Position numbers and translations under genes: made by a program. The notes beneath the pieces were generated by a model. That model did not search any database. It saw nothing but the letters and a program-made list of their open reading frames with translations, and was not told where the DNA came from. Positions 1,068-38,992 of a DNA stretch of 64,000 nt are shown piece by piece. Source of the stretch: a virus; the IMG/VR virus record IMGVR_UViG_3300027659_000020, positions 1 to 64,000 of that record. One strand, written 5' to 3'. Numbering within the stretch: position 1 is the stretch's first letter; each line of letters starts with the position of its first letter.

Positions 1068-1072
1068 CCACT

Positions 1073-14035: not shown

Positions 14036-14039
14036 TTTT

Positions 14040-14298: not shown

Positions 14299-14308
14299 TC
14301 GATTTTAC

Positions 14309-14398: not shown

Positions 14399-14405
14399 CT
14401 TTTCT

Positions 14406-14490: not shown

Positions 14491-14503
14491 ATTTCATTGA
14501 TAA

Positions 14504-14579
14504 GCTGGGGTAGCTCAACGGTTTGAGCAGCGCGTTTACATCGCGAAGGCTGGGGGTTCAAATCCCTCCCTCAGCACCA
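14504..14579 (+). tRNA. tRNA-Val(TAC)
   Basis: 76 bases. Anticodon stem CGCG/CGCG with loop TTTACAT, acceptor GCTGGGG/CCTCAGC, T loop GGTTCAAATCC, discriminator A, CCA encoded. Confidence 0.93.
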
Positions 14580-14590
14580 TTTTATTTTTA

Positions 14591-14666
14591 GGGCTCATAT
14601 CTCAGTTGGTAGAGAAGCTGCTTTGCAAGCAGAAGGTCGCAGGTTCGATCCCTGTTGAGTCCACCA
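14591..14666 (+). tRNA. tRNA-Ala(TGC)
   Basis: 76 bases. Anticodon loop TTTGCAA. The acceptor GGGCTCA/TGAGTCC contains the G3-U70 pair that defines alanine tRNAs; discriminator A, CCA encoded. Confidence 0.95.
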
Positions 14667-14689
14667 TTTTTCTCAATTTCCGCAAGGGA

Positions 14690-14807
14690 ACAGGTGTATC
14701 TAGTGAATGGCACACGCCCAATGGGAGGCGCAAGCCGTTAGACCAAACCACTAGGATAACCACCACTGGGAAGGGGGCGGGGAGCGATCTCCTCCCCCAA
14801 CTTTTTT
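14690..14807 (+). ncRNA. Small structured RNA ending in a terminator, inside the tRNA array
   Basis: The 155 bases between tRNA-Ala and tRNA-Trp hold no gene. CTAGTG (about 14700) pairs with CACTAG (about 14748), enclosing GGC/GCC and CGCC/GGCG hairpins; a rho-independent terminator follows. Possibly a short independent RNA or a spacer that trims the array transcript. Confidence 0.35.
14773..14807 (+). terminator. Rho-independent terminator within the tRNA array
   Basis: GGGGG-C-GGGGAG, tetraloop CGAT, CTCC-T-CCCCC, then AAC and six T. One of the strongest hairpin-T-tract signals in the window. Transcription of downstream tRNAs must either read through it or start again. Confidence 0.8.
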
Positions 14808-14821
14808 ATTCTTTACTTTAT

Positions 14822-14896
14822 ACGGACGTGGTACATTAGTAGTGCAGCAGTCTCCAAAACTGCCTTATGAGGGTGCGATTCCCTCCGTCCGTGCCA
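14822..14896 (+). tRNA. tRNA-Trp(CCA)
   Basis: 75 bases. Acceptor ACGGACG/CGTCCGT, anticodon stem GCAGT/ACTGC with loop CTCCAAA, discriminator G as in Trp tRNAs, CCA encoded. Confidence 0.92.
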
Positions 14897-14898
14897 AT

Positions 14899-15117
14899 TT
14901 GCCAGAATCTGATGATTTGGATTTTCTCATGTATTAAATCCAGGGTAGGTTTAATTCCCCCCGGGCAATTCATTTTGCGGCAGCAAGGGACCCCGCTAAG
15001 TCGCGGATATTTGGCGCTGTCAGCTGGTATCAAGCCCAGCCTGCAATTCAATTTTTGATAGTTAGCACACCCTTAATGAGGTCAGCTTTAATAGACTTGG
15101 GTACGGAATCAACTATC
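14899..15117 (+). other. Gene-free stretch with two tRNA-like and one long-stem element
   Basis: Two consecutive elements look like degenerate tRNAs. TTGCCAG pairs with CGGGCAA (about 14899 and 14962) with a T-loop-like GGTTTAATTCC, and TTGCGGC pairs with CCTGCAA (about 14975 and 15047) with a T-arm-like GCTGGTATCAAGCCCAGC. Both end in TTCA instead of CCA and lack a proper anticodon arm. A third element is closed by TTTGATAGTT / AACTATCAAA (15056-15120). They may be decayed tRNAs or parts of a structured RNA. Confidence 0.35.
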
Positions 15118-15121
15118 AAAT

Positions 15122-15333
15122 TTTGAATAGCAGCTCGGAGTGTAGAAGATTGTTTCCATCTTCGGTACGAGCACGGTCTCTAGCCGTCAGCGGAAAAACG
15201 CAGAATGTAACGAAAAGCCTCTGGGTTCATTAACGGCAAGTTTATTGGGAAACATTAAACTTGCCGGAATCTATGCGTAAATAGGAAACTCGCTGGAGTG
15301 TAGCCATATAAAGCAAAACTACACCTATTCAAA
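15122..15333 (+). ncRNA. Structured noncoding RNA (about 210 nt) of unknown family
   Basis: The ends pair: TTTGAATAG (15122-15130) with CTATTCAAA (15325-15333), and further in GTGTAG (15140-15145) with CTACAC (15319-15324). Inside are GAAGAT/ATCTTC, ACGG/CCGT, GCG/CGC and a perfect ten-pair stem GGCAAGTTTA / TAAACTTGCC. A second GGAGTGTAG copy at 15295-15303 could compete for the CTACAC strand, giving two alternative folds. It contains no open frame of note. It sits directly before tRNA-Asp. Confidence 0.55.
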
Positions 15334-15341
15334 TAATTTTA

Positions 15342-15416
15342 GGGGTGGTAGCTTAATGGCGAAGCACCAGCTTGTCACGCTGTAGATTGCGAGTTCAAAT
15401 CTCGTCCATCCCGCCA
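15342..15416 (+). tRNA. tRNA-Asp(GTC)
   Basis: 75 bases. Acceptor GGGGTGG/CCATCCC, anticodon stem CAGC/GCTG with loop TTGTCAC, discriminator G, CCA encoded. Confidence 0.95.
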
Positions 15417-15425
15417 ATTTCATCT

Positions 15426-15845
15426 ATGAATACTCAAACTAAAAAAATAGTAGTTGCCAGCGGTTATTTTAACCCGATTCATGTCGGGCATATCGAATAC
15501 CTTGAAAGGGCTAAGGAACTTGGCGACAAACTAGTCGTCATTGTTAATACCGATGCACAAGTAAAGATCAAGGGTTCTGTTCCATTTCAGACCGAGCAAG
15601 ATAGATTGCGCATTGTTCAGTCACTAAAAGTGGTAGACCAAGCAATCTTATCCATCGATACCGATGGAAGCGTTTGCCGCTCACTTGTCTTTTTGAAGCC
15701 AAATATCTTTGCTAAAGGCGGAGATAGGCATTCTGGCGAAATTCCAGAAAAGGTAGTATGTGATGCTCACGGAATTGCTATCATAGATGGTCTTGGAGCT
15801 AAGATTCGATCTAGCTCTAGTATAATTTCTGCCGCCATCGTCTAA
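15426..15845 (+). CDS. Cytidylyltransferase-family (HxGH) nucleotidyltransferase
   Basis: 139 residues from ATG 15426; the frame is open upstream into tRNA-Asp, so the internal Met is the real start. SGYFNPIHVGHIEYL carries the HxGH motif that binds the nucleotide phosphates, and KIRSSSSII near the end is the second family motif (ISSS-like). Such enzymes transfer CMP or AMP to small alcohol phosphates or sugars; the substrate cannot be told. The TAA stop at 15843-15845 lies inside the D-arm region of the next tRNA, overlapping it by 15 bases. Confidence 0.85.
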   Translation: MNTQTKKIVVASGYFNPIHVGHIEYLERAKELGDKLVVIVNTDAQVKIKGSVPFQTEQDRLRIVQSLKVVDQAILSIDTDGSVCRSLVFLKPNIFAKGGDRHSGEIPEKVVCDAHGIAIIDGLGAKIRSSSSIISAAIV

Positions 15846-15905
15846 CGGTTAGGACAACGGGTTTTCATCTCGTTAATCGGAGTTCGATTCTCCGTGGTGG
15901 TACCA
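15831..15905 (+). tRNA. tRNA-Glu(TTC), overlapping the end of a protein gene
   Basis: 75 bases. Acceptor GCCGCCA/TGGTGGT with two G-U pairs, anticodon loop TTTTCAT, T loop GAGTTCGATTCTC, discriminator A, CCA encoded. Its first 15 bases are also the last five codons of the nucleotidyltransferase gene. Confidence 0.93.
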
Positions 15906-15909
15906 CTTT

Positions 15910-15986
15910 CGGCGATTAGCTTAGTCTGGTAGAGCGCCTGGTTTGGGACCAGGAGGCCGCAGGTTCAAATCCTGCATCGCCGACCA
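15910..15986 (+). tRNA. tRNA-Pro(TGG)
   Basis: 77 bases. Acceptor CGGCGAT/ATCGCCG, anticodon stem CTGG/CCAG with loop TTTGGGA, discriminator A, CCA encoded. Confidence 0.95.
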
Positions 15987-15995
15987 CTTTTAGTC

Positions 15996-16003
15996 TATAA
16001 ATA
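15996..16003 (+). promoter_or_regulatory. T4-type late promoter TATAAATA
   Basis: An exact TATAAATA box nine bases before ATG 16013. Transcription would begin within a few bases of the start codon. Confidence 0.7.
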
Positions 16004-16012
16004 GCTGATACG

Positions 16013-16666
16013 ATGAAATCCTTTAAAGAATTCCTTAGAGAATCGCAATTCGCAAATAATACTCAGAAGACGCAGGTTGCCACGACCGGCGGTACCTATG
16101 AGAAGACTGGTGCTTTTCTGAAAGACAAACTGAAGCCACACTCAAAGATTGTCAGCATTGGAGCCGGGCTTGATCATACACGAGATGCAATGCACCGCGG
16201 CCTTGGACATAGTCATACAATCGACGATATGGAGCCAAATCCGGAAAAACGCAAGAATGCCCCTGAGTATACTAAGTCTGAACAGATTCCTCATAATCAT
16301 TATGACGCAGCGGTTTCGCACAATGTGCTAAATGTGGTTGAGCCTCATGTTCGCGATCACGTGATGCATTCAATTTTCAACTCAGTTAAGCCTGGCGGTC
16401 ATGCAGTAATTGGAGCCCGTAAGTGGACTGGTGATGTGGCCAAAAACAAAAACAAAACTTTGGCCTCTGAGCCAAAGGCTATGTGGGTTCACAAAGGAAC
16501 TGAGCATTCGTATCAAAAAGGATTTGACGGAGACGAACTTAAGAGTTATGTCGAAGGCTTTGCTGCAAAGCACGGTCACAAGGTCAAGGTGAGTAATCTA
16601 AAAGGCATTTCAGCCAATGGAGTTCATGTTCACATCCTTAGCAAGGGTAATCGTCCGGCTTCTTAA
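16013..16666 (+). CDS. SAM-dependent methyltransferase-like protein
   Basis: 217 residues. After an N-terminal MKSFKEFLRES helix come KIVSIGAGLDHTRD (glycine-rich SAM loop), DDMEPN (acidic residue after strand 2), HYDAAVSHNVLNVV and VKPGGHAVIGAR, the usual order of a Rossmann-type methyltransferase. Target unknown. Short 'SFKEFLxE' N-termini are common on T4-like virion proteins and may mark maturation or packaging (inference). It is driven by a late promoter amid tRNAs. Confidence 0.8.
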   Translation: MKSFKEFLRESQFANNTQKTQVATTGGTYEKTGAFLKDKLKPHSKIVSIGAGLDHTRDAMHRGLGHSHTIDDMEPNPEKRKNAPEYTKSEQIPHNHYDAAVSHNVLNVVEPHVRDHVMHSIFNSVKPGGHAVIGARKWTGDVAKNKNKTLASEPKAMWVHKGTEHSYQKGFDGDELKSYVEGFAAKHGHKVKVSNLKGISANGVHVHILSKGNRPAS

Positions 16667-16679
16667 ACCATTTTCTGAT

Positions 16680-16755
16680 GGTAGTGTAGCTCAGCTGATA
16701 GAGCACGCGCTTGATAAGCGCGCGGTCCTCGGTTTGATCCCGAGCGCTACCACCA
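16680..16755 (+). tRNA. tRNA-Ile(GAT)
   Basis: 76 bases. Acceptor GGTAGTG/CGCTACC, anticodon stem GCGC/GCGC with loop TTGATAA, discriminator A, CCA encoded. The T loop GGTTTGATCC has T for the usual second-position T/C variation. Confidence 0.94.
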
Positions 16756-16764
16756 TATTTACTC

Positions 16765-16858
16765 GGAGGATTGGCAGAGCGGTTTAATGCAAGACTTTGC
16801 TAAAGTCTAGGATGATAAATAACTCGTCCCGCAGGTTCAAATCCTGCATCCTCCGCCA
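16765..16858 (+). tRNA. tRNA-Ser(GCT)
   Basis: 94 bases with a long variable arm. Acceptor GGAGGAT/ATCCTCC, anticodon stem AGACT/AGTCT with loop TTGCTAA, discriminator G, CCA encoded. Confidence 0.95.
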
Positions 16859-16865
16859 CTTTCGT

Positions 16866-16939
16866 TGACCCTTTGTGTAATGGTAGCACAGGAGACTTTG
16901 ACTCTCCTAGTCATGGTTCGAGCCCATGAGGGTCAGCCA
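16866..16939 (+). tRNA. tRNA-Gln(TTG)
   Basis: 74 bases. Acceptor TGACCCT/AGGGTCA, anticodon stem GGAGA/TCTCC with loop CTTTGAC, discriminator G, CCA encoded. Confidence 0.95.
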
Positions 16940-16949
16940 ATAGCTTTCT

Positions 16950-17369
16950 TTATAGTTCTCCGCGCTTGATCAGAATTGCTTTGTTAATCTGATGACTTTC
17001 TGCCACGAGTTCTTTGTTCTCACCCTGATAAGGAACAGCATAATTATTATTGATTAGCCAATGATTCAGATTAGTGCCGTCATCTAGAATAAACTCACCG
17101 AGGATACGACCAAATTTGTCGTCGTTATTATCCGGCTTGAGAGTGTTAACCTTGACCCAACTACCCGCAGGCAGTTTTTCGGCAAGCTTCTTCTTAGATA
17201 GAAGACCGCGCGGCTTCTCTTCCTTGTTGGATGTGCGTGATTCGGGAGTATCCACTCCAGCCATACGAACGCGCTGATTAGCTAGCACGATATTAAAACC
17301 GAGATCCAGATCGATGTCGACTGTATCGCCATCTAGAACCTTATTGACTTTGCATGAGTATTGGTACAT
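16950..17369 (-). CDS. Staphylococcal-nuclease-like endonuclease
   Basis: 139 residues from the Met at 17369; an upstream in-frame Met exists, but a GATAAATA late-type box eight bases before 17369 decides this start. VLDGDTVDIDLDLG, RMAGVDTPESR and DDKFGRILGEF are the staphylococcal/micrococcal nuclease motifs, with the acidic calcium site and the two Arg residues. It cleaves DNA or RNA. No signal peptide, so it acts inside the cell. It is on the opposite strand to the tRNAs. Confidence 0.9.
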   Translation of the reverse strand: MYQYSCKVNKVLDGDTVDIDLDLGFNIVLANQRVRMAGVDTPESRTSNKEEKPRGLLSKKKLAEKLPAGSWVKVNTLKPDNNDDKFGRILGEFILDDGTNLNHWLINNNYAVPYQGENKELVAESHQINKAILIKRGEL

Positions 17370-17377
17370 AGTTACAG

Positions 17378-17385
17378 TATTTATC
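17378..17385 (-). promoter_or_regulatory. Late-type promoter GATAAATA for the nuclease
   Basis: On the minus strand GATAAATA lies eight bases before the ATG at 17369, the same spacing as the TATAAATA boxes elsewhere. Confidence 0.5.
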
Positions 17386-17458
17386 GAATTATAAATATTC
17401 TTGCTATAAAGATTCATCAGCTTTCACAGTTCAATCTTAACTTTACTACTGTTAATAC

Positions 17459-17650
17459 ATGCTAGTGATCCGCAGAATGGTCGACAAGCATAGGTCTTAC
17501 ACCGCTATCTTTCTTAAAGGTGAGCAGCCTAAGATCTTTCCTACTTCGGATTACGAGCATGCTAGAATCCTAAAGATCTTCAAGCAGGATAAAGCTTATG
17601 AAGATGTTCTAAACGATTTTACAGATTATGGGCGAGTGGCGGAATGGTAG
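17459..17650 (+). CDS. Small protein whose stop lies in tRNA-Leu
   Basis: 63 residues, unknown, mixed alpha/beta with basic start. Its last seven codons (21 bases) overlap the tRNA-Leu gene and its TAG stop is the GGTAG of the D loop. The similar arrangement at two other tRNAs supports it being a real gene. Confidence 0.5.
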   Translation: MLVIRRMVDKHRSYTAIFLKGEQPKIFPTSDYEHARILKIFKQDKAYEDVLNDFTDYGRVAEW

Positions 17651-17713
17651 ACGCGAAGGTCTTAGAAGCCTTTTCCTTTTGGAGTGCAGGTTCGATCCCT
17701 GTCTTGCCCACCA
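17630..17713 (+). tRNA. tRNA-Leu(TAG)
   Basis: 84 bases with class II variable arm. Acceptor GGGCGAG/CTTGCCC, anticodon stem AAGGT/GCCTT with loop CTTAGAA, discriminator A, CCA encoded. Confidence 0.94.
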
Positions 17714-17719
17714 TTTTAC

Positions 17720-17795
17720 GGTCCTGTAGCTCAACGGTTAGAGCAGAGGACTCATAATCCTTTGGTTGCGGGTTCAAATCCCGCTGGGACCACCA
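17720..17795 (+). tRNA. tRNA-Met(CAT), first copy
   Basis: 76 bases. Acceptor GGTCCTG/TGGGACC, anticodon stem AGGA/TCCT with loop CTCATAA, discriminator A, CCA encoded. It could also be an Ile tRNA if C34 is modified to lysidine; the sequence alone does not tell. Confidence 0.93.
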
Positions 17796-17810
17796 TATAC
17801 ATATTTCTAT

Positions 17811-17886
17811 GCGGTAGTATCTCAGTTGGTAGAGAACGAGTTTTCCAAACTTGATGTCGCAGGTTCGATCCCTGTCTGCCGCACCA
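17811..17886 (+). tRNA. tRNA-Gly(TCC)
   Basis: 76 bases. Acceptor GCGGTAG/CTGCCGC, anticodon stem CGAGT/ACTTG with loop TTTCCAA, discriminator A, CCA encoded. Confidence 0.94.
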
Positions 17887-17901
17887 ATTTCACATACATA
17901 T

Positions 17902-18411
17902 ATGAGCATTGCACATCTTCTAGGTAATGGTCCTTCCCGCAAGGACTTTGTAAATGACCCCAATGGGCCAGCATTTGGCTGTAATTTATCTGATTCTGCG
18001 TTACCACTAAAGGCAACGTTCATCATGGATAAAGTCTGCATTGGACATATCCATAATAATAAGTTGAAGCTAAACTTTCCGGTGATTGTGCCGCAGAATA
18101 TAACGCGGCTCGTGCAACAGTGCGATCCTGCACCAGTTATTCTAGATACTATCTTAAATAACGTTGAGAATGGAGAATCTACGGGACATAAAGCGGTCGA
18201 ATATCTGCTCAGCAAAGGCTTTACTGAGATTCATATGTGGGGCTTTGATTCGCTCTACCGCGAGACGATAGAATCTGATAGCCATACAAAGATGCCCGAG
18301 TGTCCAGCGTCTGCAAATAACTGGAAGAAATGGCGTAAGAACTGGCAAAGTATCTTCAATTCCGAGCTTGGTAAGAAGTGCAAGTTCGAGGTTCATGGGA
18401 AGCCCTTGTAG
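17902..18411 (+). CDS. Glycosyltransferase-like / DUF115-like protein
   Basis: 169 residues from ATG 17902. LLGNGPSRKDF at the N-terminus and STGHKAVEYLLSKGFTEIHMWGFDS in the middle are the layout of the MptE/DUF115 and sialyltransferase-like Rossmann fold, where the GNGPS loop binds a nucleotide. Phage versions may modify a sugar or nucleotide. Its TAG stop (18409-18411) is formed by the conserved U8-A9-G10 of the following tRNA-Arg, with ten bases of overlap. Confidence 0.65.
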   Translation: MSIAHLLGNGPSRKDFVNDPNGPAFGCNLSDSALPLKATFIMDKVCIGHIHNNKLKLNFPVIVPQNITRLVQQCDPAPVILDTILNNVENGESTGHKAVEYLLSKGFTEIHMWGFDSLYRETIESDSHTKMPECPASANNWKKWRKNWQSIFNSELGKKCKFEVHGKPL

Positions 18412-18478
18412 CTCAATTGGAAAGAGCACCGTTTTTCTAAATCGGCGGCTGTGGGTTCAAATCCCGCCGAGGGCACCA
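18402..18478 (+). tRNA. tRNA-Arg(TCT), overlapping the end of a protein gene
   Basis: 77 bases. Acceptor GCCCTTG/CGAGGGC, anticodon loop TTTCTAA, T loop GGTTCAAATCC, discriminator A, CCA encoded. One mismatch occurs in the anticodon stem. Confidence 0.92.
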
Positions 18479-18481
18479 GAA

Positions 18482-18706
18482 TTATGCAAGCTGTTGCAGC
18501 ATCTTAATGATGTGCTCGGCTTTTGACCACTGGCCAGAATCGATAGCTGCAAGCAATTCTTTTTTTAGATTGTACACTATATCAGCTAGATCGGTACCAA
18601 GTATACTGTTTCCAATCGAGTGTGAAGCTTGAGGTGGAGTATGCTTGCCGTAAATGCTAGCAGCTTGCTTGATCCCTATGGAATTACTGATGGGGCTTAT
18701 TTCCAT
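18482..18706 (-). CDS. Small late protein
   Basis: 74 residues, unknown. Ser/Ile/Gly-rich N-terminal half, helical C-terminal half. A perfect TATAAATA box lies six bases before the start codon on the minus strand, so it is probably expressed late from a leaderless message. Confidence 0.6.
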   Translation of the reverse strand: MEISPISNSIGIKQAASIYGKHTPPQASHSIGNSILGTDLADIVYNLKKELLAAIDSGQWSKAEHIIKMLQQLA

Positions 18707-18712
18707 TTGAGC

Positions 18713-18720
18713 TATTTATA
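18713..18720 (-). promoter_or_regulatory. T4-type late promoter TATAAATA
   Basis: Exact TATAAATA on the minus strand, six bases before ATG 18706. Confidence 0.7.
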
Positions 18721-18733
18721 AAAAGCGTACTTT

Positions 18734-18813
18734 CTTCTGCTTGTCAGAAGTAATGGTGGAGGGCTTCATCTAAGAAGCCCCTCGCGACTGAGTAACCTGC
18801 GCAGTGGTTGCTC
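18734..18813 (+). ncRNA. Three consecutive hairpins upstream of the P-loop kinase
   Basis: CTTCTG/CAGAAG (18734-18750), GGGCTTC/GAAGCCC (18761-18780, perfect) and GAGTAACC/GGTTGCTC (18790-18813, one G-U) follow each other with no open frame. Possibly a small RNA or regulatory element between divergent genes; the strand is not certain. Confidence 0.35.
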
Positions 18814-18864
18814 CTTATTTCTAACCGTCTGTTGGTAATCAATAGCTTAGGTAATTCAAAGTGC

Positions 18865-18892
18865 TTTACATTTTTAGTGGATGACGTAGGAT
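18865..18892 (+). promoter_or_regulatory. Early-type promoter, consensus form
   Basis: TTTACA (18865-18870), 16 bases, TAGGAT (18887-18892). The predicted transcription start coincides with ATG 18899, giving a leaderless mRNA. Confidence 0.65.
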
Positions 18893-18898
18893 TATCCT

Positions 18899-19366
18899 AT
18901 GAATTCAATGCCTACCATCACCTTCACCGCTGGTTGCGGTGGTTCTGGCAAAAGTACAATGCTCAAGAAGAACTACCCCGGTTTGCCTGGCGTTGACTCG
19001 GATGCCATCAAGATGGCGATGCCGAACTACGATTCAGCTAATCCGCAGCTGGTGCACGATGCATCTACGACGATTGCCATGCGCGAATTCTACTCCCGGC
19101 TCGGCGCTGGCAAGGATTTCTTCTTCGATGGAACTGGCAAAAACGTCGAGAAATACATCAGCCTTATCACTGCTGCCAAGGCTGCTGGCTTCCAGACACG
19201 GATGTTCTTTGTTCGCGCTAAGATTGAAACCTGCCTTGCTCGGAATGCTGCTCGGACACGAGTGGTTCCAGCGGAGGTTATTCTTGAAACCTACCAAGCG
19301 CTTGAGGTTGCACAAAGCATTCTAAAGCACTACGTTGACTTCTATGAGGTTGTCAATAACGACTAA
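18899..19366 (+). CDS. P-loop kinase (AAA_33 / zeta-toxin-like)
   Basis: 155 residues. Walker A GCGGSGKST at 12-20; VDSDAIK shortly after and FFFDGTGKN as the Walker B-like strand; RNAARTRVVP is an Arg-rich lid. This is the pattern of small polynucleotide-kinase or zeta-toxin-like kinases. In a tRNA-rich phage region a 5'-RNA/tRNA repair kinase is attractive but unproven; no phosphatase domain is fused. The start at 18899 is supported by promoter position. It ends five bases before the tmRNA. Confidence 0.75.
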   Translation: MNSMPTITFTAGCGGSGKSTMLKKNYPGLPGVDSDAIKMAMPNYDSANPQLVHDASTTIAMREFYSRLGAGKDFFFDGTGKNVEKYISLITAAKAAGFQTRMFFVRAKIETCLARNAARTRVVPAEVILETYQALEVAQSILKHYVDFYEVVNND

Positions 19367-19370
19367 TTTT

Positions 19371-19748
19371 GGGCGCGTTCTGGATTCTACTTAATGGTGG
19401 ACTTACTGGAAGCAAGCATGGTTGCTGGACCATTCAAAACCTGCAAAAACACAAACGGCATCAACAATGTCATCGCTGCAATCTTCGGTCAGACCGAGCA
19501 GCATCAGCTCGCTGCCTAATAACAGCGACCGATTCTAGTACCGATACTCGCTGAGTATTGGAATCGTCATCTAGCGAGTCTTGAGTGTTAGGTTTTTACT
19601 TGGTTAGTAGCACTCGAGTACACAAATCGAAGTTATGCTGAGATGAGAGCAAGTCCTCTTCTCAGAAGAACACAAATCTTGCTAAGCTTGTAGAAACTGG
19701 ATAGAAAAACTGCTAAGCACGCGGGTTCAACTCCCGCCGCGTCCACCA
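19371..19748 (+). ncRNA. ssrA: Transfer-messenger RNA (tmRNA), one-piece
   Basis: 378 bases. The 5' end GGGCGCG pairs with the 3' CGCGTCC (with the G3-U70 alanine determinant), followed by A-CCA. The 5' TTCTGGATTC and 3' ACGCGGGTTCAACTCCCGC are almost identical to E. coli tmRNA. A PK1-like pseudoknot (ATGGT/ACCAT with GCTGG/CCTGC) is followed by an A-rich linker and a frame ending in codons for QLAA and tandem stops TAA TAA (19519-19524 region), the classic proteolysis tag. The likely resume codon is GGC, giving a tag of about 20 residues. tmRNA frees stalled ribosomes and tags incomplete proteins for degradation. Confidence 0.95.
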
Positions 19749-19752
19749 ATTT

Positions 19753-19920
19753 ATGAGTATAGACAAAGCAATTAAACACAAAAAAGAAAAACGCAAAGAA
19801 TACCGTGGATCAAAGCGGTTTGATCGCACGTGCCGAAATCACGGGAGATGCCCTTACTGTGCTGGCGGCCGCCAACATAGGATGCGTCGGCAAGAACCAA
19901 TAGACCAGCTTTCTGAATGA
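19753..19920 (+). CDS. Small zinc-finger-like conserved T4-like protein
   Basis: 55 residues, MSIDKAIKHKKEKRKEYRG then CRNHGRCPYC, a Cys/His cluster that can hold one zinc. I recall close relatives with the same N-terminus in marine T4-like phages. It starts five bases after the tmRNA and may be read from the same transcript. Very basic; nucleic-acid binding is plausible. Confidence 0.7.
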   Translation: MSIDKAIKHKKEKRKEYRGSKRFDRTCRNHGRCPYCAGGRQHRMRRQEPIDQLSE

Positions 19921-19935
19921 TCTCGCTGGTTCTAT

Positions 19936-20124
19936 TTAACCAGAACCATTTATTTTCTTGAACTCAATCTTACCAGATTGAATGATGACCTCAAATGTGT
20001 CTCCATGCTGTACTCTCAAATGCTCAGGTCTGAGTTCGTCATCGAAGATGATAGAGTCATCCTCAGTAAGCTTAAAGCTGTAGTCTAGGAATGTAGTAGG
20101 AAACTTCTGCAGATCGTGATGCAT
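19936..20124 (-). CDS. Small protein of unknown function
   Basis: 62 residues on the minus strand, acidic in the middle, beta-rich towards the C-terminus (FEVIIQSGKIEFKKI). No family recognised. It converges on the preceding small gene. Confidence 0.5.
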   Translation of the reverse strand: MHHDLQKFPTTFLDYSFKLTEDDSIIFDDELRPEHLRVQHGDTFEVIIQSGKIEFKKINGSG

Positions 20125-20157
20125 TTAGTTATCTATCTAAAATTTTCCATTTTATTG

Positions 20158-20185
20158 TTTACAGATGCACTAATCAATGTATGAT
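20158..20185 (+). promoter_or_regulatory. Early-type promoter driving a noncoding transcript
   Basis: TTTACA (20158-20163), 16 bases, TATGAT (20180-20185). No protein gene follows for 1.1 kb; the first transcribed gene-like object is the structured RNA described next. Confidence 0.6.
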
Positions 20186-20808
20186 CTAGTCTGTAATCTT
20201 CGTTCTTTAACATTTTTCAAGTAGATACCCGTTTAATGAAAATAATCGCCCAATATGTCTGAGGCTGGTTACTACGGTGCGGAAATTGACAAATACACCG
20301 AGCATCTACTTGAATCATTTCACAGGTCGCTCTGTTGAAACTCTAAAGGTTATGTCGAGCGCTAGTGACCCTTGCCGGTATCACACAGGTTGACCTCTAA
20401 CCTTTAGAGAATTTTTTCTCTGGATTGATCTCCGGAGGCTCCGTTCCTGAGGCAGGTTTTCTCGAACTTGTTGTCACCACGGGCGTAAGCAGTACTGGAA
20501 TCTTTGTGATAAGGAAACAAGCCTTGGCAAAGACTGCATTACGACGCCGATGGAACGGAGTAACTTTCATCATCATACTCGACTAGGCGAGTCTAAATAG
20601 AAGTATAGGCCTAGTGCGGCAGGGATAACCTCCCTGCGACTTGCCACGCCGCAGTCCGGTCGAGCTCCCGGTTAAAGCCAAAAGCGCTGCGTGAATAAAC
20701 GTGAGAACAAAAATCCGCTGGAGTATATCTCTCTGGAGTATAAATAAATCTCACTGCGATTTAGATATTCGCAAGCGTGGCGCCACATTTTGTTCTTTTT
20801 ACATTTTT

Positions 20809-20881
20809 GCAGAGTAGATCAGTGGTAGATCGCTTGGCTCATAACCAAGAGGGCAGGGGTTCAATTCCCTTCTCTGCACCC
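20809..20881 (+). tRNA. tRNA-Met(CAT), second copy, embedded in the large noncoding RNA
   Basis: Acceptor GCAGAG/CTCTGC, D arm GATC/GATC, anticodon stem CTTGG/CCAAG with loop CTCATAA, T loop GGTTCAATTCC. The 3' end reads A-CCCA instead of A-CCA, and the seventh acceptor pair is T-T, so it is slightly irregular. Whether initiator, elongator or Ile-type is undecided. Confidence 0.88.
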
Positions 20882-21234
20882 AATTTTCTTAGACCACAAA
20901 TCGGCAATTGCGCCGTCAGTGGTCGTATTCATCGAAGTCAGCAACATCCGATAAGCAGAACAGCTATGGTTGCCGAGTGACTAATTGCGACGGATGGTAT
21001 GCGAAGCCCGGTTGTTAAGTCCTGCTGTTATCTATAACGGACTCAACCGGTGACAGTAATGTCTAGCAGAGCCCAGGACAACATCGATGAGCAGCGGTCT
21101 AAGAGAAAATGCAGATACTGCATCCCATGGGATACCGTGGGAAGCTTTCGTTAGGTCTAAACCTCACGCGGAATGTAGAACCGCGGTGTATTACTAGTTA
21201 AAATGTGTCTCGACTATGGAGACATCAGATATGA

Positions 21235-31326: not shown

Positions 31327-31587
31327 ATGGCTGCTGCACCGAAAGACTTATTTGACTTCGGATTCACTGCAGTAGCAGAGCAAGATCTTGATGCCACGAA
31401 GCAAGTTGATGTGGCATACAAGCAAGCTGCAAAACACGAGGACAAGCTCGCCAAACTATATGATGCGATCCTTCCTTTGCTGCAGAATTTAAAGAAGAAT
31501 CCTGAGAAGGAATACATTAAATGGCCTAACCGAGTGAAGAAGGTCGAAGAATTTGAGAAGATGATTTCGGAGATTGTCAATGGATGA
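31327..31587 (+). CDS. Conserved small T4-like protein
   Basis: 86 residues with DLFDFGFTAVAEQDL and KLYDAILPLLQNLKKNPEKEYIKWPNRVKK. I recall the same blocks in uncharacterised proteins of T4-like cyanophages. Helical, soluble. Confidence 0.65.
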   Translation: MAAAPKDLFDFGFTAVAEQDLDATKQVDVAYKQAAKHEDKLAKLYDAILPLLQNLKKNPEKEYIKWPNRVKKVEEFEKMISEIVNG

Positions 31588-31868
31588 ATCTAGATACATT
31601 CAAATCAATCATGGATCTGGGCTTCTCAGTTGCAGCCGTGACTGTTGGCGGCGTTTTCATTGTTATCCTACTTAAGTATATTTTGGCAGGAGTTGTTTCT
31701 GATGTAAAGTCTATCAGCGGTCTAGCAGGAATGCTGAATAACCGCGTGCGCACAATGAACAACGATCTGGTCCGGATCGATGCTCTAATTTCTTCTCGAT
31801 TTGGGTTGCGCGTCGATCTTGAGCGGCTATCGCGCACTGATGGCAAGACCGATGCTCGAAAGGACTGA
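31584..31868 (+). CDS. Small membrane protein A (paralogue pair, holin-like)
   Basis: 94 residues with one strong membrane segment at about 12-37 (GFSVAAVTVGGVFIVILLKYILAGVV) and a charged helical tail containing NNRVRTMNNDLVRIDALI. The next protein has the same layout and a matching tail motif, so they are probably paralogues. Size and layout suit holin or pinholin-type proteins; not proven. It overlaps the previous gene by four bases. Confidence 0.6.
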   Translation: MNLDTFKSIMDLGFSVAAVTVGGVFIVILLKYILAGVVSDVKSISGLAGMLNNRVRTMNNDLVRIDALISSRFGLRVDLERLSRTDGKTDARKD

Positions 31869-31873
31869 CCGTG

Positions 31874-32212
31874 ATGGAGGAGATCAATACATTCAAGACG
31901 ATGGTCAACCAGTATGGCCTACCGATTATGGCAGCTGGTGGAATGGGCTACTTTATTTACTTTGTCTGGAAATTTGTAACTGAGAATATCAATGTAGAGC
32001 TCTCGAACGCGAAGAAAATAATGATTGAGCTAATCGATAGAATTAGAATGCTAGATAACGATTTAATACGTCTCGAGCAGAAGATCAATACTGCTATCGA
32101 GGTTAAACGTGTAGAGAATCCGCTTAAAGCTAACCCCGAACGGCCTGCTGGAACAACTTCGCCATTTAATCTACCTCCTACCGATGGACAATCACAGCCG
32201 AAACAGCTATAA
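31874..32212 (+). CDS. Small membrane protein B (paralogue pair, holin-like)
   Basis: 112 residues from ATG 31874 (a GTG at 31871 is directly before). One membrane segment at about 15-36 (GLPIMAAGGMGYFIYFVWKFV), then a helix with IDRIRMLDNDLIRLEQKI matching the tail motif of its neighbour, and a Pro-rich end. It overlaps the csgF-like gene by 29 bases. Confidence 0.6.
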   Translation: MEEINTFKTMVNQYGLPIMAAGGMGYFIYFVWKFVTENINVELSNAKKIMIELIDRIRMLDNDLIRLEQKINTAIEVKRVENPLKANPERPAGTTSPFNLPPTDGQSQPKQL

Positions 32213-32693
32213 GGCCGCCGATACTGGATTCCTATTACTAGTAGGAATTTTGCTATTCCTGTGTGTATTGCAGTCGTGTGGCCGGGCCTCGGATATGGTA
32301 CATTCATTTAAGTCGCCGGCATTTAGCGGAATTGGCTACTCCTCGCATATATTTACTCAGGAGAATTTAGCACGCACTCGCAAGCAAACAATCAAAGATG
32401 TTGCTAAAGCAGAGGCAGAAAATCTAAAGCTTGCAAGCCAGAATACTCCTCTGAATAGCTTCATTGTGAATCTGCAGGCGCGTATTTACTCGCAGCTTGC
32501 ATCTCAGGTAACAGATCAGATCTTCAATGCATCTGGTGCAACTTTTGGTGTCATTAACTTGCAAGGTGGATCAACAGTAACATGGAATCGAGCGGGTGAC
32601 TTTGTCACTCTATACATTACTGATCCTTCCACCGGCAACATTACTTCAATTCAGGTGCCGGTAGGATCTCTATCGCCGCCTCCATCTAGCTGA
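32184..32693 (+). CDS. csgF: CsgF-like curli assembly factor
   Basis: 169 residues. After a hydrophobic export segment (15-31) with a Cys at 32 comes the CsgF pattern: SFKSPAFSG (E. coli mature CsgF starts with FRNPNFGG, which plugs the CsgG pore), then NTPLNSFIVNLQARIYSQLASQ and a C-terminal VTLYITDPSTGNITSIQVP matching the LNVTDRKTGQTSTIQV end of CsgF. In curli systems, CsgF caps the CsgG channel on the outer face and couples secretion to nucleation. Here its stop overlaps the csgG-like start (TGATG), so the two are made together. The long N-terminal extension before the plug motif is unusual. Confidence 0.82.
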   Translation: MDNHSRNSYKAADTGFLLLVGILLFLCVLQSCGRASDMVHSFKSPAFSGIGYSSHIFTQENLARTRKQTIKDVAKAEAENLKLASQNTPLNSFIVNLQARIYSQLASQVTDQIFNASGATFGVINLQGGSTVTWNRAGDFVTLYITDPSTGNITSIQVPVGSLSPPPSS

Positions 32694-33502
32694 TGAAAGT
32701 AATTGCCATGAGCCTACTCGCGCTGTCTTTAGTTGGCTGCGCTTCAATACCTCGCTCGCCGAGTATTCTTGAGATGCCACGCAGCCAAGTATCTCCGCTT
32801 GAGAAGCAATTGATCGGGGTTCCACCAATTGATGGTAACCGGATCACTGTTGCTATCTACGGTTTCGCAGATAAGACAGGTCAGCGCAAGACTCAGGATG
32901 CTTATGCTTCATTCTCATCAGCGGTCACACAAGGAGCAGATTCTTGGCTAATTGACTCACTGCGCACTGCTGGATCAGGTAGGTGGTTTCAGGTGCTAGA
33001 GCGAACATCCTTGGACAATCTAATTAAGGAACGGCAGCTTATTGCACAGACGCGCGAGTCGTTTCTGGGCAGAGATGCTGAAAAACTTTCTCCGATGCTA
33101 TTCGCCGGTATCATTGCTGAGGGCGGGATTATCGGATACGATACTAACATTTTGACTGGAGGTGCCGGAGCTAGTCTCTTAGGTATATCCGGAAATACAC
33201 AATACCGAAAAGATGTCGTGACAGTCTCCTTGAGATTTGTCTCGGTTCAGACTGGAGAAGTACTGCTTTCTGTAGCAGTTACAAAAACAATCACAAGTGT
33301 GAGCGTCTCTGGAAATCTTTTCAAGTTCTATGAACACGGTACAACGCCCGCAGAATCTGAATTGGGCCTGACAGCTAATGAGCCGAATACTATCGCGGTT
33401 CGTAGCGCAATTGATCAGGCTGTTATAGAGATCATACATCAAGGGGCGAAGACTGGATTATGGAAATTCGTCACGACACTACCACTAACCACAAATCCTT
33501 AA
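32693..33502 (+). CDS. csgG: CsgG-like outer-membrane secretion channel lipoprotein
   Basis: 269 residues, close to CsgG (277). Lipoprotein signal MKVIAMSLLALSLVGC with Cys 16 as the lipid anchor. RITVAIYGFADKTGQRK, FSSAVTQGADSWLIDSL, RWFQVLERTSLDNLIKERQLI and the later GGIIGYDTN with two amphipathic beta stretches (the barrel strands) follow the CsgG order. CsgG forms a nine-subunit channel in the outer membrane that exports unfolded curlin without ATP. It lies between csgF-like and curlin-like genes, which together suggest a complete phage-made secretion line. Confidence 0.92.
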   Translation: MKVIAMSLLALSLVGCASIPRSPSILEMPRSQVSPLEKQLIGVPPIDGNRITVAIYGFADKTGQRKTQDAYASFSSAVTQGADSWLIDSLRTAGSGRWFQVLERTSLDNLIKERQLIAQTRESFLGRDAEKLSPMLFAGIIAEGGIIGYDTNILTGGAGASLLGISGNTQYRKDVVTVSLRFVSVQTGEVLLSVAVTKTITSVSVSGNLFKFYEHGTTPAESELGLTANEPNTIAVRSAIDQAVIEIIHQGAKTGLWKFVTTLPLTTNP

Positions 33503-33514
33503 GATAATTGCACT

Positions 33515-34327
33515 ATGAAAACTCTCATTAAGCTAATAATCGGATTTGCACTGATCGGATTGTTCCTCACCGCAGCATATGCGCAGAACCAGATCTATGT
33601 AAATCAAGTTACTACAGGCGGAAATACCACCTTAGTCCAAGTCGGAAGCCTCAATAAAGTCGGGACCTCACAAACTCCGAGTGACATCACCGGAGATAAT
33701 ATCGTGTTTGAAATGCGTCAGATTGGCGACAGCAATGACACCAAGTTTTCCATTGCTAGCGCAAACAACCTGAAGCTGCTTACTGTTGCTACCGGCAATA
33801 GCAATGCCCAGCAGTATTACTTCTCTGGTGCTAGCAATAATGTAAATATACTACTGAATGGAAACTCAAATAAGTTCTTACTCAACGGAGACACTACCGT
33901 GGATCACACATCGAGCACAGATACAGCTAAGGCTACCTTTACCAATTCGGACCTGTTGTTCGACGTTCAAGGTAACTCGAATGACATCCGTCTTGGAATT
34001 AGTTCAGGTAAATACAACTATCTGGACTACAAAGTCACTGGTAACTCCAATACTATCAAATCAACTCAAATCGGAAACACGGCGGGTTCTGCTGCAAAGG
34101 CTGGCCATGAACAGACCGTTGTGCTTACCGGATCTTCCAATGACTTGACAATCTATCAGGGCGGACTCGAAAAGCAACTGTTCAACTACACACTGGCCGG
34201 ATCAACCAATACGGTGCGCATTGTGCAGACCACGACCGGTTATGCTCCGGTGATGACTACATCCGGAACAAATGGCCCAGCAGGTCCTGCCACTACCACC
34301 AATTCAATCGTTCCTCCTTCACTTTAA
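33515..34327 (+). CDS. Curlin-like secreted repeat protein
   Basis: 270 residues. Signal peptide MKTLIKLIIGFALIGLFLTAAYA, cleavage before QNQIYV, which mirrors the start of mature curlins. The mature part is built of repeats with a G-x-S-N core roughly every 20-30 residues: GDSND, GNSNA, GASNN, GNSNK, GNSND, GNSNT, GSSND, GSTNT, each followed by alternating beta residues and often Gln (IKSTQIG, LTIYQGG, VRIVQT). Curlin repeats are 'S-x5-Q-x-G-x2-N-x-A-x3-Q'; these are related in style but diverged. The tail is Thr/Pro-rich. It is the expected cargo of the CsgG/CsgF channel encoded just upstream. Confidence 0.72.
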   Translation: MKTLIKLIIGFALIGLFLTAAYAQNQIYVNQVTTGGNTTLVQVGSLNKVGTSQTPSDITGDNIVFEMRQIGDSNDTKFSIASANNLKLLTVATGNSNAQQYYFSGASNNVNILLNGNSNKFLLNGDTTVDHTSSTDTAKATFTNSDLLFDVQGNSNDIRLGISSGKYNYLDYKVTGNSNTIKSTQIGNTAGSAAKAGHEQTVVLTGSSNDLTIYQGGLEKQLFNYTLAGSTNTVRIVQTTTGYAPVMTTSGTNGPAGPATTTNSIVPPSL

Positions 34328-34330
34328 TCC

Positions 34331-35494
34331 GTGAATATTAAAGCCGCTATTGCTATTAGCTTAGCGGCTTTTTCGTCTGCGTATGGGTCGATTGGAAAGA
34401 TGCTAGAGGTAACTGGGCCTACTCAGATTGTTCGTGGGAAAGATAAGATTGAGGGCAAAGTCAATGTAGAAGTTGAGATGAACGATTCAGTGGAAACGCT
34501 TAAGTCTCGTGTCTCGATTACATTCGAGGATAATACCCGGATGCAGGTTACAGAATTCTCAAAGCTAAAAATTGATGAATTTGTATATGACTCAAAGACT
34601 GGTAAAGGTAGTCTGGGTATAAAAGCTGCATTTGGCACTGTGCGGTATGCTTCTGGAGCAATCGCCAAGAACAGCCGTGAAAACGTCAAGGTGCAGACAC
34701 CTACCGCAAAAGTATCGGTGCGTGGCACTGACTTTTCAATGACAGTATCTGAAGATGGCAAGAGTCTGATTGTACTTCTACCATCAATTCCTAACGCCGC
34801 TGGCGAAAAAGCAATAGTAGGAGAGATTGAGGTCTCGAATATGAGCGGCACTGTGCTAATGACTAAAGCATATCAGGCAACATTCGTATCCTCGGCAAAT
34901 ACCGCTCCCACTCCTCCCATCATTCTAGACTTTCAGGATGAGTCTAAGATCAACAATATGCTAATGGTCGAGACACCTAAGCAAGTCACGCAGGCAGTGA
35001 AAGAACAGAAGAAAGACAAACAATCACAATCCACAAGCGACAATGAAGATAATAAGCCAAAAAAATCTGCTGCGAAAGCAGATGCTAAGGTTGCAGTTTC
35101 TCAGATTGATACGCCAGCAAATAATGAACCAGTGGCTAAAGCAGAAGATATACCTGCCGTCGAGACTAAGTTAGATCTAAGCTCTATACAGCCACAGGTG
35201 ATGCAAGCGGTTGCTGAGGCAATTTCAAAGACTATTGCTCCAGCAGCTCCAGCAGTTTCAGTTATAGCAGTGGAGCCACCTACTAATATGATAGTGTCTG
35301 CAACAGTAAATACTGGCTGGTCAACTGATGGAGTTAACGCCACGCTGTATATCGATAGTAGCGGAAATATCATTCGGTATAGCACTAAAGCAAATATCAG
35401 CGCTACAGTTGAAGTCACTAACGGTGAGGGAGCCAAGACATATCCTCTCAACTTCGGTGATAAATTAAATGTGAAGATCATACAAAAGAAATAA
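34331..35494 (+). CDS. FecR-domain exported protein
   Basis: 387 residues, GTG start three bases after the curlin-like gene. A signal peptide (about 1-18, AAIAISLAAFSSAYG) precedes a FecR domain at about 25-165: MNDSVETLKSRVSITFEDNTRMQVTEFSKLKI and VQTPTAKVSVRGTDFSM, the hallmark 'TP-x-A-x-x-x-RGTDF'. The remaining 200 residues are Lys/Glu/Pro/Ala-rich and probably an extended periplasmic spacer, with a beta-rich end. FecR proteins are periplasmic sensors or scaffold proteins; in many bacteria they sit beside CHASE2-cyclase genes, as here. A periplasmic signal relay to the next protein is inferred. Confidence 0.85.
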   Translation: MNIKAAIAISLAAFSSAYGSIGKMLEVTGPTQIVRGKDKIEGKVNVEVEMNDSVETLKSRVSITFEDNTRMQVTEFSKLKIDEFVYDSKTGKGSLGIKAAFGTVRYASGAIAKNSRENVKVQTPTAKVSVRGTDFSMTVSEDGKSLIVLLPSIPNAAGEKAIVGEIEVSNMSGTVLMTKAYQATFVSSANTAPTPPIILDFQDESKINNMLMVETPKQVTQAVKEQKKDKQSQSTSDNEDNKPKKSAAKADAKVAVSQIDTPANNEPVAKAEDIPAVETKLDLSSIQPQVMQAVAEAISKTIAPAAPAVSVIAVEPPTNMIVSATVNTGWSTDGVNATLYIDSSGNIIRYSTKANISATVEVTNGEGAKTYPLNFGDKLNVKIIQKK

Positions 35495-35496
35495 TT

Positions 35497-37539
35497 ATGA
35501 AGAAACATATGCTCAAGACTCTTGCTGTGGGATTTGGCGTGCTTGCAGCCGCGGCCATTCTGCGAATCTTGGATCCATACCCAATTGAAGTACTTCGTCT
35601 AAAAGGTCTAGATTACTACCAACGAGCGCAAGAAAAGAAGCTATCCGAGAATATCGCGGTTATTGAGATCGACGAGAATGCTCTAGAAGCAAATGGGCAA
35701 TGGCCCTGGAAACGCGATGTACTTGCTGCCGGTATACAACGCGCCGCAGACGCAGGAGCAACAGCAGTAGTTCTGCCCGTCATCTTTGCAGAGCCTGACC
35801 GGCTTGGCGGAGATGTTCAGTTCGTAGAGCAGCTTAATAAAACAGCAGTAATCATTTCTCAGTCTGCATCCCAAAAGGGCAAAGGATATCCAGTGCCTCG
35901 GGGCCTAGCTACTATCGGTGGAGCAGCAGAGGATTGGCTGTTCGACTATCCTGCTGCAATTGGGCCGATTGATGAAATTGGCAAAGCCGCAGCAGGTGTC
36001 GGTATGCTGCTAACAGCACCTGAACTTGATGGCGTGGTACGTCGCCTTCCGCTAATCATACAAGTCAAAGGTGAGAAGTATCCTACTTTACCACTCGAGG
36101 TGCTGCGCGTCTTTGGCGGTGAGGCGAGTAATCAGGCAAAAGTCACAGAAGCTGGTATTGCGGCAGTGCGCGTGGCAGGTATTGCGCCAATTAAGACTGA
36201 TGCTAATGCCAGAGTCTGGCTTAACTTTAAGTATACCTTTTCTTCAGTATCTTACACTGATAAAGACTGGAGCAGTCTAAAGGGTCGTATTGCTATTATT
36301 GCACCGACGGCAGAAGGTCTGGCAAATACTGTAGCATCACCTCTGGGTACTACATACGGTTATGAGGTCAATCTTCATGCATTGCAGATGCTGATTGATG
36401 AGGCGCGTTTGGAACGGCCAGCGGAATTTGATCTTTATGAGCTTGCTGCAGGTGTGCTGATTTGCGCAATAGCAGTAGTGACTATCTGCTATCTGAGTTA
36501 TAAACTTGCCGGGCTGATCTTTGTGCTACTTGCTGCAATTCCCATCGGTATAGGATTCTACCTATTTCACCTCGGATTGCTAGCCGACTATACATGGCTG
36601 ATAATCGCGTTGACAGCAAGCTGGGGATCTGCGCTGTTCATGCGATTCGTGATGGAATTTAAGTTAAAGCAGCAGATTAAAAAGCAGTTTGAGACATACC
36701 TATCGCCAGATCAGGTTGCGCAGTTACAGAAGAATCCAGATGCACTCAAACTCGGAGGTGAGGAACGCGAGCTTTCCATCATGTTCACCGATGTCCGTGG
36801 GTTTACCGCAATCTCTGAGCACTACGGAAAGAACGTCCAGGGACTGACTCAGATCATGAATCGCTACATGACAGCAATGACTAGGTCAATCATTGAGAAG
36901 AAAGGTACTCTCGACAAGTACATCGGCGATGCTCAGATGGCATTCTGGAATGCTCCTCTCGATGACAATTCTCATGCCATTCATGCGGTTGAAACTGGTC
37001 TGGAGATGATGAGAAGTCTGAAGGCTTTTAATGCAGAGATCACTCAGGAAGGTGTCCCGGCTTTTGGTATGGGTCTGGGTATCAACACCGGAACTGTGGT
37101 GGTAGGCAATATGGGATCTGAGCAGCGATTTGACTACACCTGCCTGGGCGATCATGTCAATCTTGCATCACGCCTAGAAGGACAGTCAAAACCGTACGGT
37201 GTGAAGATCGTTCTGGGACCACTTACTCGTGAGCGCGTGAAGGATGTCTATCCTACGCTAGAGCTTGATTGCATCGCAGTAAAAGGTAAGAAAGAAGGCG
37301 TGCGAATCTACACCGTCTTTGACAAAGGCACTCATATCTATCCGGTGAGCCATGATAGCTTTCTGGATCTATATCGTACTCGCGAATGGAATGAAGCAAT
37401 CAGGCTGGCAAAGCACCTTGCTGCTAGTATGGACTTCATGGCTGGATACTACGAGATGATGGTCGAGCGGATTGAGTATCTGCGCGATAATGATCCCGGA
37501 ACAAGTTGGGATACTATTTTTAGAGCCACCTCGAAATAA
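35497..37539 (+). CDS. CHASE2-domain class III adenylate cyclase
   Basis: 680 residues, two bases after the FecR gene. One N-terminal membrane helix (about 5-23), a periplasmic CHASE2 sensor (about 30-310, with VIEIDENALEANGQWPWKR), three membrane helices (about 315-385) and a cytoplasmic cyclase domain (about 425-610). Catalytic residues are all visible: metal-binding D432 (FTDVRGF) and D478 (DKYIGD), substrate-specifying K474 with T548 (DYTCLGD, the bacterial class IIIb form), and transition-state N555 and R559 (VNLASR). It should therefore make cAMP in response to a periplasmic signal, perhaps via the FecR-domain protein. Adenylate cyclases are hardly known in phages. A short helical C-terminus (about 615-680) follows. 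Confidence 0.92.
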   Translation: MKKHMLKTLAVGFGVLAAAAILRILDPYPIEVLRLKGLDYYQRAQEKKLSENIAVIEIDENALEANGQWPWKRDVLAAGIQRAADAGATAVVLPVIFAEPDRLGGDVQFVEQLNKTAVIISQSASQKGKGYPVPRGLATIGGAAEDWLFDYPAAIGPIDEIGKAAAGVGMLLTAPELDGVVRRLPLIIQVKGEKYPTLPLEVLRVFGGEASNQAKVTEAGIAAVRVAGIAPIKTDANARVWLNFKYTFSSVSYTDKDWSSLKGRIAIIAPTAEGLANTVASPLGTTYGYEVNLHALQMLIDEARLERPAEFDLYELAAGVLICAIAVVTICYLSYKLAGLIFVLLAAIPIGIGFYLFHLGLLADYTWLIIALTASWGSALFMRFVMEFKLKQQIKKQFETYLSPDQVAQLQKNPDALKLGGEERELSIMFTDVRGFTAISEHYGKNVQGLTQIMNRYMTAMTRSIIEKKGTLDKYIGDAQMAFWNAPLDDNSHAIHAVETGLEMMRSLKAFNAEITQEGVPAFGMGLGINTGTVVVGNMGSEQRFDYTCLGDHVNLASRLEGQSKPYGVKIVLGPLTRERVKDVYPTLELDCIAVKGKKEGVRIYTVFDKGTHIYPVSHDSFLDLYRTREWNEAIRLAKHLAASMDFMAGYYEMMVERIEYLRDNDPGTSWDTIFRATSK

Positions 37540-38315: not shown

Positions 38316-38510
38316 ATGAAAGCTAATCAACTCACTTCCATCAAAATGAATAATACCCAAGTGCTCGCTCCTGCAAATGACGGTAAAATCGGCGAGCCGC
38401 TCGGCGTTTGGCTTCGCCGACTGAATGATAAGGTTATGAGTACCCCGTCCGACCTTGAGGAGATGCTGGCAGTTAAATCTTCAGGCGCGACAGGAATTCT
38501 TTGGAAATAA
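38316..38510 (+). CDS. Small protein of unknown function
   Basis: 64 residues from ATG 38316. The frame is open further upstream but that part overlaps the previous gene. Part of the same small-gene group. Confidence 0.45.
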   Translation: MKANQLTSIKMNNTQVLAPANDGKIGEPLGVWLRRLNDKVMSTPSDLEEMLAVKSSGATGILWK

Positions 38511-38521
38511 TAAAACGCAAC

Positions 38522-38992
38522 ATGAAAACACGCACGCGCATGATCCTCAACCGTACCAAGACTTTACTGCTCCTTGGATCAATGCTCGCCGTGGGTTCCT
38601 TTGCTCGCGCTCAGGATACTGACAGAATGATCGTTGCTCTGGCGAAAGTCGAGTCAAATGGCAATGCTGCCGCGGTTGGAGATAACGGTAAGGCCTTCGG
38701 TATCCTCCAGATTCATCTCTCGATGGTACTCGACGCTAACCGCATCGCTAGCACACACTTCACACACCGTGAGATGCTTGATCCAGTAAAAGCTCGTTCT
38801 GTAGCGAAGATTGTGCTAACCTATTACTCTAAACACATTAGTAAAACCACTGGCCGCAATGCAACCAACAAGGAGCTCGCGTTCATCTGGAACGGCGGTG
38901 CGGGCGCATGGAAGCGAGCTAGCGTCCCTATCGATGATGCGAAACAGCGCAACCTCGAGGTATACTGGAACAAGGTCGCTAAAGCCCTCTAA
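38522..38992 (+). CDS. Exported lytic-transglycosylase-like enzyme
   Basis: 156 residues with a long signal peptide (MKTRTRMILNRTKTLLLLGSMLAVGSFARAQ). IVALAKVESNGNAAAVGDNGKAFGILQIH is the SLT-type pattern, with catalytic Glu in KVESNG and the GxLQI block; later AFIWNGGAGAWKRA corresponds to the substrate-groove YNGG motif. It would cut peptidoglycan from the periplasm. Since gp5 here lacks the T4 lysozyme domain, this could be the lysis enzyme, exported by the host Sec system rather than by a holin. Confidence 0.78.
   Translation: MKTRTRMILNRTKTLLLLGSMLAVGSFARAQDTDRMIVALAKVESNGNAAAVGDNGKAFGILQIHLSMVLDANRIASTHFTHREMLDPVKARSVAKIVLTYYSKHISKTTGRNATNKELAFIWNGGAGAWKRASVPIDDAKQRNLEVYWNKVAKAL

Follow-up and report, generated by a model that had tools for sequence, protein, structure and literature searches.

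Curli genes were reported in pelagimyophages in 2020 (PMC7029224). In 2022 the work on phage Melnitz put forward the hypothesis that CsgG and CsgF serve as a lysis pore, and clumping was not seen in Melnitz-infected cultures (PMC9004378), a result that speaks against curli export. In the same year FecR and an adenylate cyclase were described within phage curli modules; an origin from Alphaproteobacteria was claimed, and one or two 'histidine kinases' were placed ahead of csgF (PMC9599517). Thus, phage FecR and cyclase in curli modules are already known in kind (PMC9599517), and the cyclase is already annotated in the records of HTVC008M and Melnitz. As regards cellular systems, CHASE2 cyclases in S. 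meliloti increase cAMP when a signal is perceived via the outer-membrane beta-barrel protein NsrA (PMC13001267).

The window analysed here is a stretch of 64,000 nucleotides of a viral record of 89.6 kb. It contains a packed unit of seven genes at positions 31584-37539, all on the plus strand, with the FecR and cyclase genes at its 3' end:

31584..31868, plus strand: small membrane protein 1 (94 aa, one TM helix at residues 12-30, coiled-coil-like tail; phrog_18771, E=1.2e-24)
31871..32212, plus strand: small membrane protein 2 (113 aa, paralogue of small membrane protein 1; phrog_18771, E=6e-31)
32184..32693, plus strand: CsgF, curli export accessory protein (PF10614, E=9.4e-17; the listed start overlaps the gene of small membrane protein 2)
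32693..33502, plus strand: CsgG, outer-membrane curli export pore lipoprotein (PF03783, E=2.4e-50)
33515..34327, plus strand: curlin-like repeat protein (signal peptide, predicted beta-strand repeat)
34331..35494, plus strand: periplasmic FecR-domain protein (387 aa, GTG start; PF04773, E=1.6e-10)
35497..37539, plus strand: membrane-bound CHASE2 class III adenylate cyclase (680 aa; PF05226, E=2.2e-40; PF00211, E=3.2e-20)

This layout matches the phage T8SS/curli type of PMC9599517, in which csgF, csgG and a curlin-like gene are followed by FecR and adenylate cyclase. An earlier sequence-only reading of this DNA had singled out the last two genes as a pair separated by two bases. Both open reading frames and the two-base gap were confirmed, and the pair itself is real; however, it does not form a stand-alone unit but the tail of a CsgF-CsgG-curlin module. 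The FecR protein (34331..35494) is composed of a signal peptide, a long linker and a C-terminal domain. Matches to promoter and terminator consensus were near chance level. Just 3' of the cyclase, in the window's clade, there is a lytic-transglycosylase-like gene with a leader (38501-38992, PF01464).

The cyclase joins CHASE2 (PF05226, residues 19-328) and, at the C-terminus, Guanylate_cyc (PF00211, residues 425-605) in one protein, and the Pfam search bore out this predicted combination with E=2.2e-40 and E=3.2e-20, respectively. Its hydropathy profile reveals an N-terminal helix at residues 8-26 and further hydrophobic stretches within residues 316-386. The three membrane helices proposed earlier are therefore correct for the block that follows CHASE2, but one more, also read from hydropathy, precedes this domain; the periplasmic-sensor architecture, with CHASE2 located between the N-terminal helix and the membrane block, agrees with the earlier description. 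All catalytic residues that had been listed (D432, D478, K474, T548, N555 and R559) were found in the window cyclase, and the protein has the class III set of two metal-binding Asp, a base-binding Lys and the transition-state Asn and Arg. D432, K474, D478, D552 and R559 are unchanged in 83 of 83 phage cyclase homologues, N555 is kept in 81 of the 83, and position 548 is occupied by T in 78, by D in four and by S in one. K474 with T548 is the ATP-type combination of class III cyclases, and the window cyclase is predicted from its residues to make cAMP. The solved domains nearest to the catalytic domain are those of bacterial adenylate cyclases. In comparison to its nearest relatives the gene has a dN/dS of about 0.05, which means strong purifying selection, with synonymous sites near saturation. 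Unlike the others, the cyclases of Melnitz (L082) and of contig L054 bear Ser at the position of the transition-state Asn (N555) and Asp at position 548; given this Ser, activity across the phage cyclases may not be uniform. In contig G026 (the contig of L116) the cyclase is split at about residue 583 by approximately 800 bases into two parts (81430-83181 and 83995-84294), an interruption resembling an intron or a homing-endonuclease insertion.

A cyclase scan of 2.9 million viral contigs gave at least 585 confirmed matches, 80 of which were examined. The order csgF-csgG-curlin-fecR-(curlin)-cyclase was found in every one of the 39 related loci in which 6.5 kb or more of sequence precedes the cyclase, and the same gene order occurs in the cultured phages HTVC008M and Melnitz, in whose records, among cultured phages, the cyclase and CsgG come together. 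The packed core unit, along with the small membrane pair, is shared by many T4-like phages. All five core genes are under purifying selection, the cyclase and the curli genes were never apart in the loci examined, and a curlin-like secreted protein was present in every module locus examined.

As to the curli genes themselves, most of CsgG (residues 9-259) can be aligned to structures of E. coli CsgG, at E=1.7e-43. Besides a leader, the curlin-like protein contains repeats of the type Q-x-G-x-x-N or G-x-x-N, and many of their Q, G and N positions do not vary among 13 homologues. Its AlphaFold2 model is all beta with a regular strand repeat (pLDDT 77.9, pTM 0.75), and a search of PDB structures with this model returned nothing significant (best E 0.068). 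The Pfam family Curlin_rpt was matched by five of 14 curlin-like homologues (best E=8.6e-6) but not by the window protein itself, which weakens the curli-export reading. It can be concluded that the module carries curli/type VIII secretion genes, while export and assembly of a fibre are predicted only, from sequence and model.

FecR-CHASE2 cyclase pairs do occur in bacteria, as the sequence-only reading had stated: the two genes were adjacent in all five alphaproteobacterial plasmid loci checked, and FecR is thus the usual partner of the cyclase. In these loci, on plasmids of Ensifer, Paracoccus, Shinella and Ruegeria, the cyclases have the same catalytic residues as that of the window and are about 28-35% identical to it, whereas curli genes are absent nearby. 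Alphaproteobacterial curli operons have csgF and csgG adjacent to each other, as in the phage module, and no FecR or cyclase was found in the four operons checked. This arrangement suggests that FecR-cyclase is a pre-existing bacterial sensor unit and that its union with curli took place in phages alone. The species-genome collection was also searched for a near bacterial source of the cyclase; none turned up at close range, and the profile scan returned only two short contigs, L084 and L085. Genes with a cNMP domain lie within about 10 kb of FecR-cyclase in three of the five plasmids, while about 0.1 per plasmid would be expected (an estimate from overall density). On plasmid pAMI5 of Paracoccus aminophilus (L126), a gene for a cNMP-binding and patatin-like phospholipase protein (215-2041, minus strand) is divergent from a TPR-FecR-CHASE2 cyclase operon, a layout that resembles the phage cNMP arrangement described below.

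The two small membrane proteins at the 5' end of the unit (31584..32212) share invariant G13, L51, R54 and D61 in their alignment. When viral contigs were scanned with the pair alone, 80 loci were obtained and module genes were present in 71 of them. The pair takes two main placements, in which it either precedes csgF or sits beside the cyclase end in convergent orientation, and among cultured phages it was found in HTVC008M and Melnitz only. On these grounds we take the small pair as a true part of the module. From their position and size we infer that the 'histidine kinases' of PMC9599517 are these proteins. A histidine kinase upstream of csgF is unsupported here: the window copies, of 94 and 113 aa, have no kinase signature, no kinase match in Pfam and no His at all, and His occurs in only eight of 27 and 13 of 27 family members.

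Proteins which bind cyclic nucleotides are rare in phages. In three of 12 related records, a cNMP_binding search revealed a protein of some 215 aa; by further scans it was located in 19 viral contigs and, in addition, in L018 and L054. In six contigs its gene is adjacent and divergent to csgF:

L039, 5718-6356, minus strand: cNMP-binding protein
L040, 3867-4526, minus strand: cNMP-binding protein
L018, 5606-6259, minus strand: cNMP-binding protein
L054, 513-1196, minus strand: cNMP-binding protein
L092, 9995-10642, plus strand: cNMP-binding protein
L090, 1857-2495, plus strand: cNMP-binding protein

On six more contigs the gene lies about 13-15 kb from the cyclase, and eight of the other nine end within 6 kb upstream of the gene, being too short to show a cyclase at the distance seen in their relatives. 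In contig L102 the protein is present but the 8 kb to each side of it are free of curli genes, a possible exception to the linkage. The cNMP domain of the relatives' protein is matched at E=1e-16 to 1e-21, its phosphate-binding cassette GEGAL...PRNA is invariant, and the fold is well predicted and matches the domains of CRP, PKA/PKG and channels. At the C-terminus most members have one clear hydrophobic helix and a second, weaker one, in a region of low model confidence. A role as a CRP transcription factor was considered and rejected, as only the cNMP domain matches, the C-terminus is hydrophobic and no HTH was matched. This protein is a candidate phage-encoded cyclic-nucleotide receptor in the relatives. 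No cNMP-binding protein was found in the window's own record of 89.6 kb, and no cNMP receptor in its near relatives G001 and G002 or in HTVC008M and Melnitz.

The cNMP protein and the small TM pair were never together in the contigs tested: 12 cNMP-positive contigs are without the pair, and eight pair-positive records are without the cNMP protein. On the cyclase tree (FastTree, with some long branches) no fewer than three changes between the pair and cNMP states are required, and L018 and L054, both cNMP-positive, fall with the clade of the window. The alternation suggests that the roles of the small pair and the cNMP protein may be interchangeable.

Taken together, we give about an even chance to the reading of this locus as a phage curli (type VIII secretion) module that includes a cAMP switch sensing the envelope. 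The curlin-like protein would be exported by the phage through CsgG/CsgF, FecR and CHASE2, on the periplasmic side, would sense the export of curlin, the assembly of the pore or the state of the envelope, and the cyclase would then raise cAMP, which could act on host CRP-type regulators; in sister phages it may be read by the cNMP-binding protein with the hydrophobic C-terminus, encoded beside csgF. It had been proposed earlier that the cyclase reads a periplasmic or surface signal. We keep the link to the envelope but not the free-standing surface sensor, since FecR-cyclase is the tail of the curli module and its signal more probably has to do with the envelope or with amyloid export. A route from the outer membrane to CHASE2 would have a precedent by analogy, because the S. 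meliloti cyclases respond through an outer-membrane barrel. A fuller version, which we put forward only tentatively and regard as possible but on the doubtful side, is a complete phage-owned circuit. In it, the envelope-sensing cAMP cyclase tied to curli export would be coupled to a phage cAMP-gated membrane effector altering the membrane state, e.g., for lysis timing or a superinfection block, and this effector would be the cNMP protein in one set of phages and the small TM pair in others, including the window. If true, one virus would encode the enzyme that makes a cyclic-nucleotide signal as well as the protein that reads it. With the sensor unit and the candidate receptor, the curli genes of widespread aquatic phages pass from 'unknown function' to a testable sensor-messenger-receptor circuit.

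The locus may be explained in other ways. According to the idea of the Melnitz authors, the CsgG/CsgF pore and its neighbours would be a lysis-timing device, in which the cyclase and the small or cNMP membrane proteins gate depolarisation and do not serve amyloid export. Besides the pore and lysis proposal itself (PMC9004378), this is consistent with the lytic-transglycosylase-like gene just downstream in the window (38501-38992) and with the small TM pair and the cNMP protein being membrane-type proteins tied to the module. However, the curlin-like secreted protein is always in the module, curlin was deemed absent in PMC9004378 yet the Melnitz record annotates two curlin-repeat proteins, and an outer-membrane pore such as CsgG leaves the FecR-CHASE2 sensor unexplained; we hold a lysis-timing device to be unlikely, yet a serious rival. 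There is likewise only a small chance, in our judgement, that the cyclase rewires the host through cAMP acting on the CRP regulon while curli genes, with no involvement of the cyclase, serve for adhesion or protect against superinfection. The absence of a phage receptor from the window record, G001, G002, HTVC008M and Melnitz speaks for such rewiring, but the cyclase is inseparable from the curli genes in the loci examined, and relatives encode a cNMP-binding protein of their own.

A Pycsar-like system carried on a phage, in which a cyclic nucleotide activates a membrane effector, e.g., against superinfecting phages, would account for the PADLOC results, in which the cyclase is hit by PycC models (best 1.6e-25) and the cNMP protein of the relatives by PycTIR/effector models. 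Pycsar effectors also include the membrane-disrupting PycTM (PMC11224242). Nevertheless, we find this reading quite improbable, as the PADLOC matches reach no further than the cyclase and cNMP folds common to both systems, a CHASE2 sensor, FecR or curli genes do not belong to Pycsar, K474, which is of the ATP type, never varies, and the window record is without a cNMP effector. Finally, the module could be misassembled or contaminating bacterial DNA, with which the bacterial origin of the cyclase family would agree. The sequence-only reading had named a misassembled bacterial contig as one outcome that would overturn it, and conserved synteny, including that of HTVC008M and Melnitz, excludes it. 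The order is identical across dozens of contigs and the cultured phages; the same window holds T4-like genes, and a gp32-type SSB and baseplate wedge and hub proteins confirm that this is a real phage of the T4-like kind, in whose record an integrase was not found. The GC content of the module is like that of the remainder (0.461 vs 0.444 for the window), and among 84,980 species genomes the sole two matches are short contigs of Flavobacteriaceae MAGs (L084 and L085), which carry the phage-type cyclase and are probably stray phage contigs. Bacterial DNA is thus a negligible prospect for us, and the curli module with its own cAMP switch is the reading we prefer.

In comparison to known systems, the module resembles Pycsar in having a class III cyclase and, in related phages, a protein that binds cNMP and has a membrane-like part. 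In contrast to Pycsar, the window cyclase is membrane-bound with CHASE2, has ATP-type K/T residues and is phage-borne within a curli module. The S. meliloti cyclases CyaD1, CyaD2 and CyaK, which work with NsrA and Clr, are likewise CHASE2 cyclases, and a FecR-domain protein is among the Clr targets (PMC13001267, PMC5498481); however, theirs is a cellular plant-signal pathway without curli, and its receptor is a CRP-family transcription factor. A close counterpart is the pelagiphage T8SS module of HTVC008M and Melnitz (PMC9599517), with the same genes in the same order, the cyclase last and the small pair present. The cyclases of these two phages are 41-42% identical to that of the window, their modules have two curlin-like genes whereas the window has one, and the GC content is about 35-37% in their stretches vs 44% in the window phage, a value that argues weakly against a SAR11-type host. 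The window also carries eighteen tRNA genes and a one-piece-type tmRNA with the tag GINNVIAAIFGQTEQHQLAA (13960-20882). Melnitz is said to have a two-piece tmRNA. To the published work that was found, this analysis adds the candidate cNMP receptor, the way in which it alternates with the small pair, a new reading of the 'histidine kinases' and two separate bacterial sources for the halves of the module.
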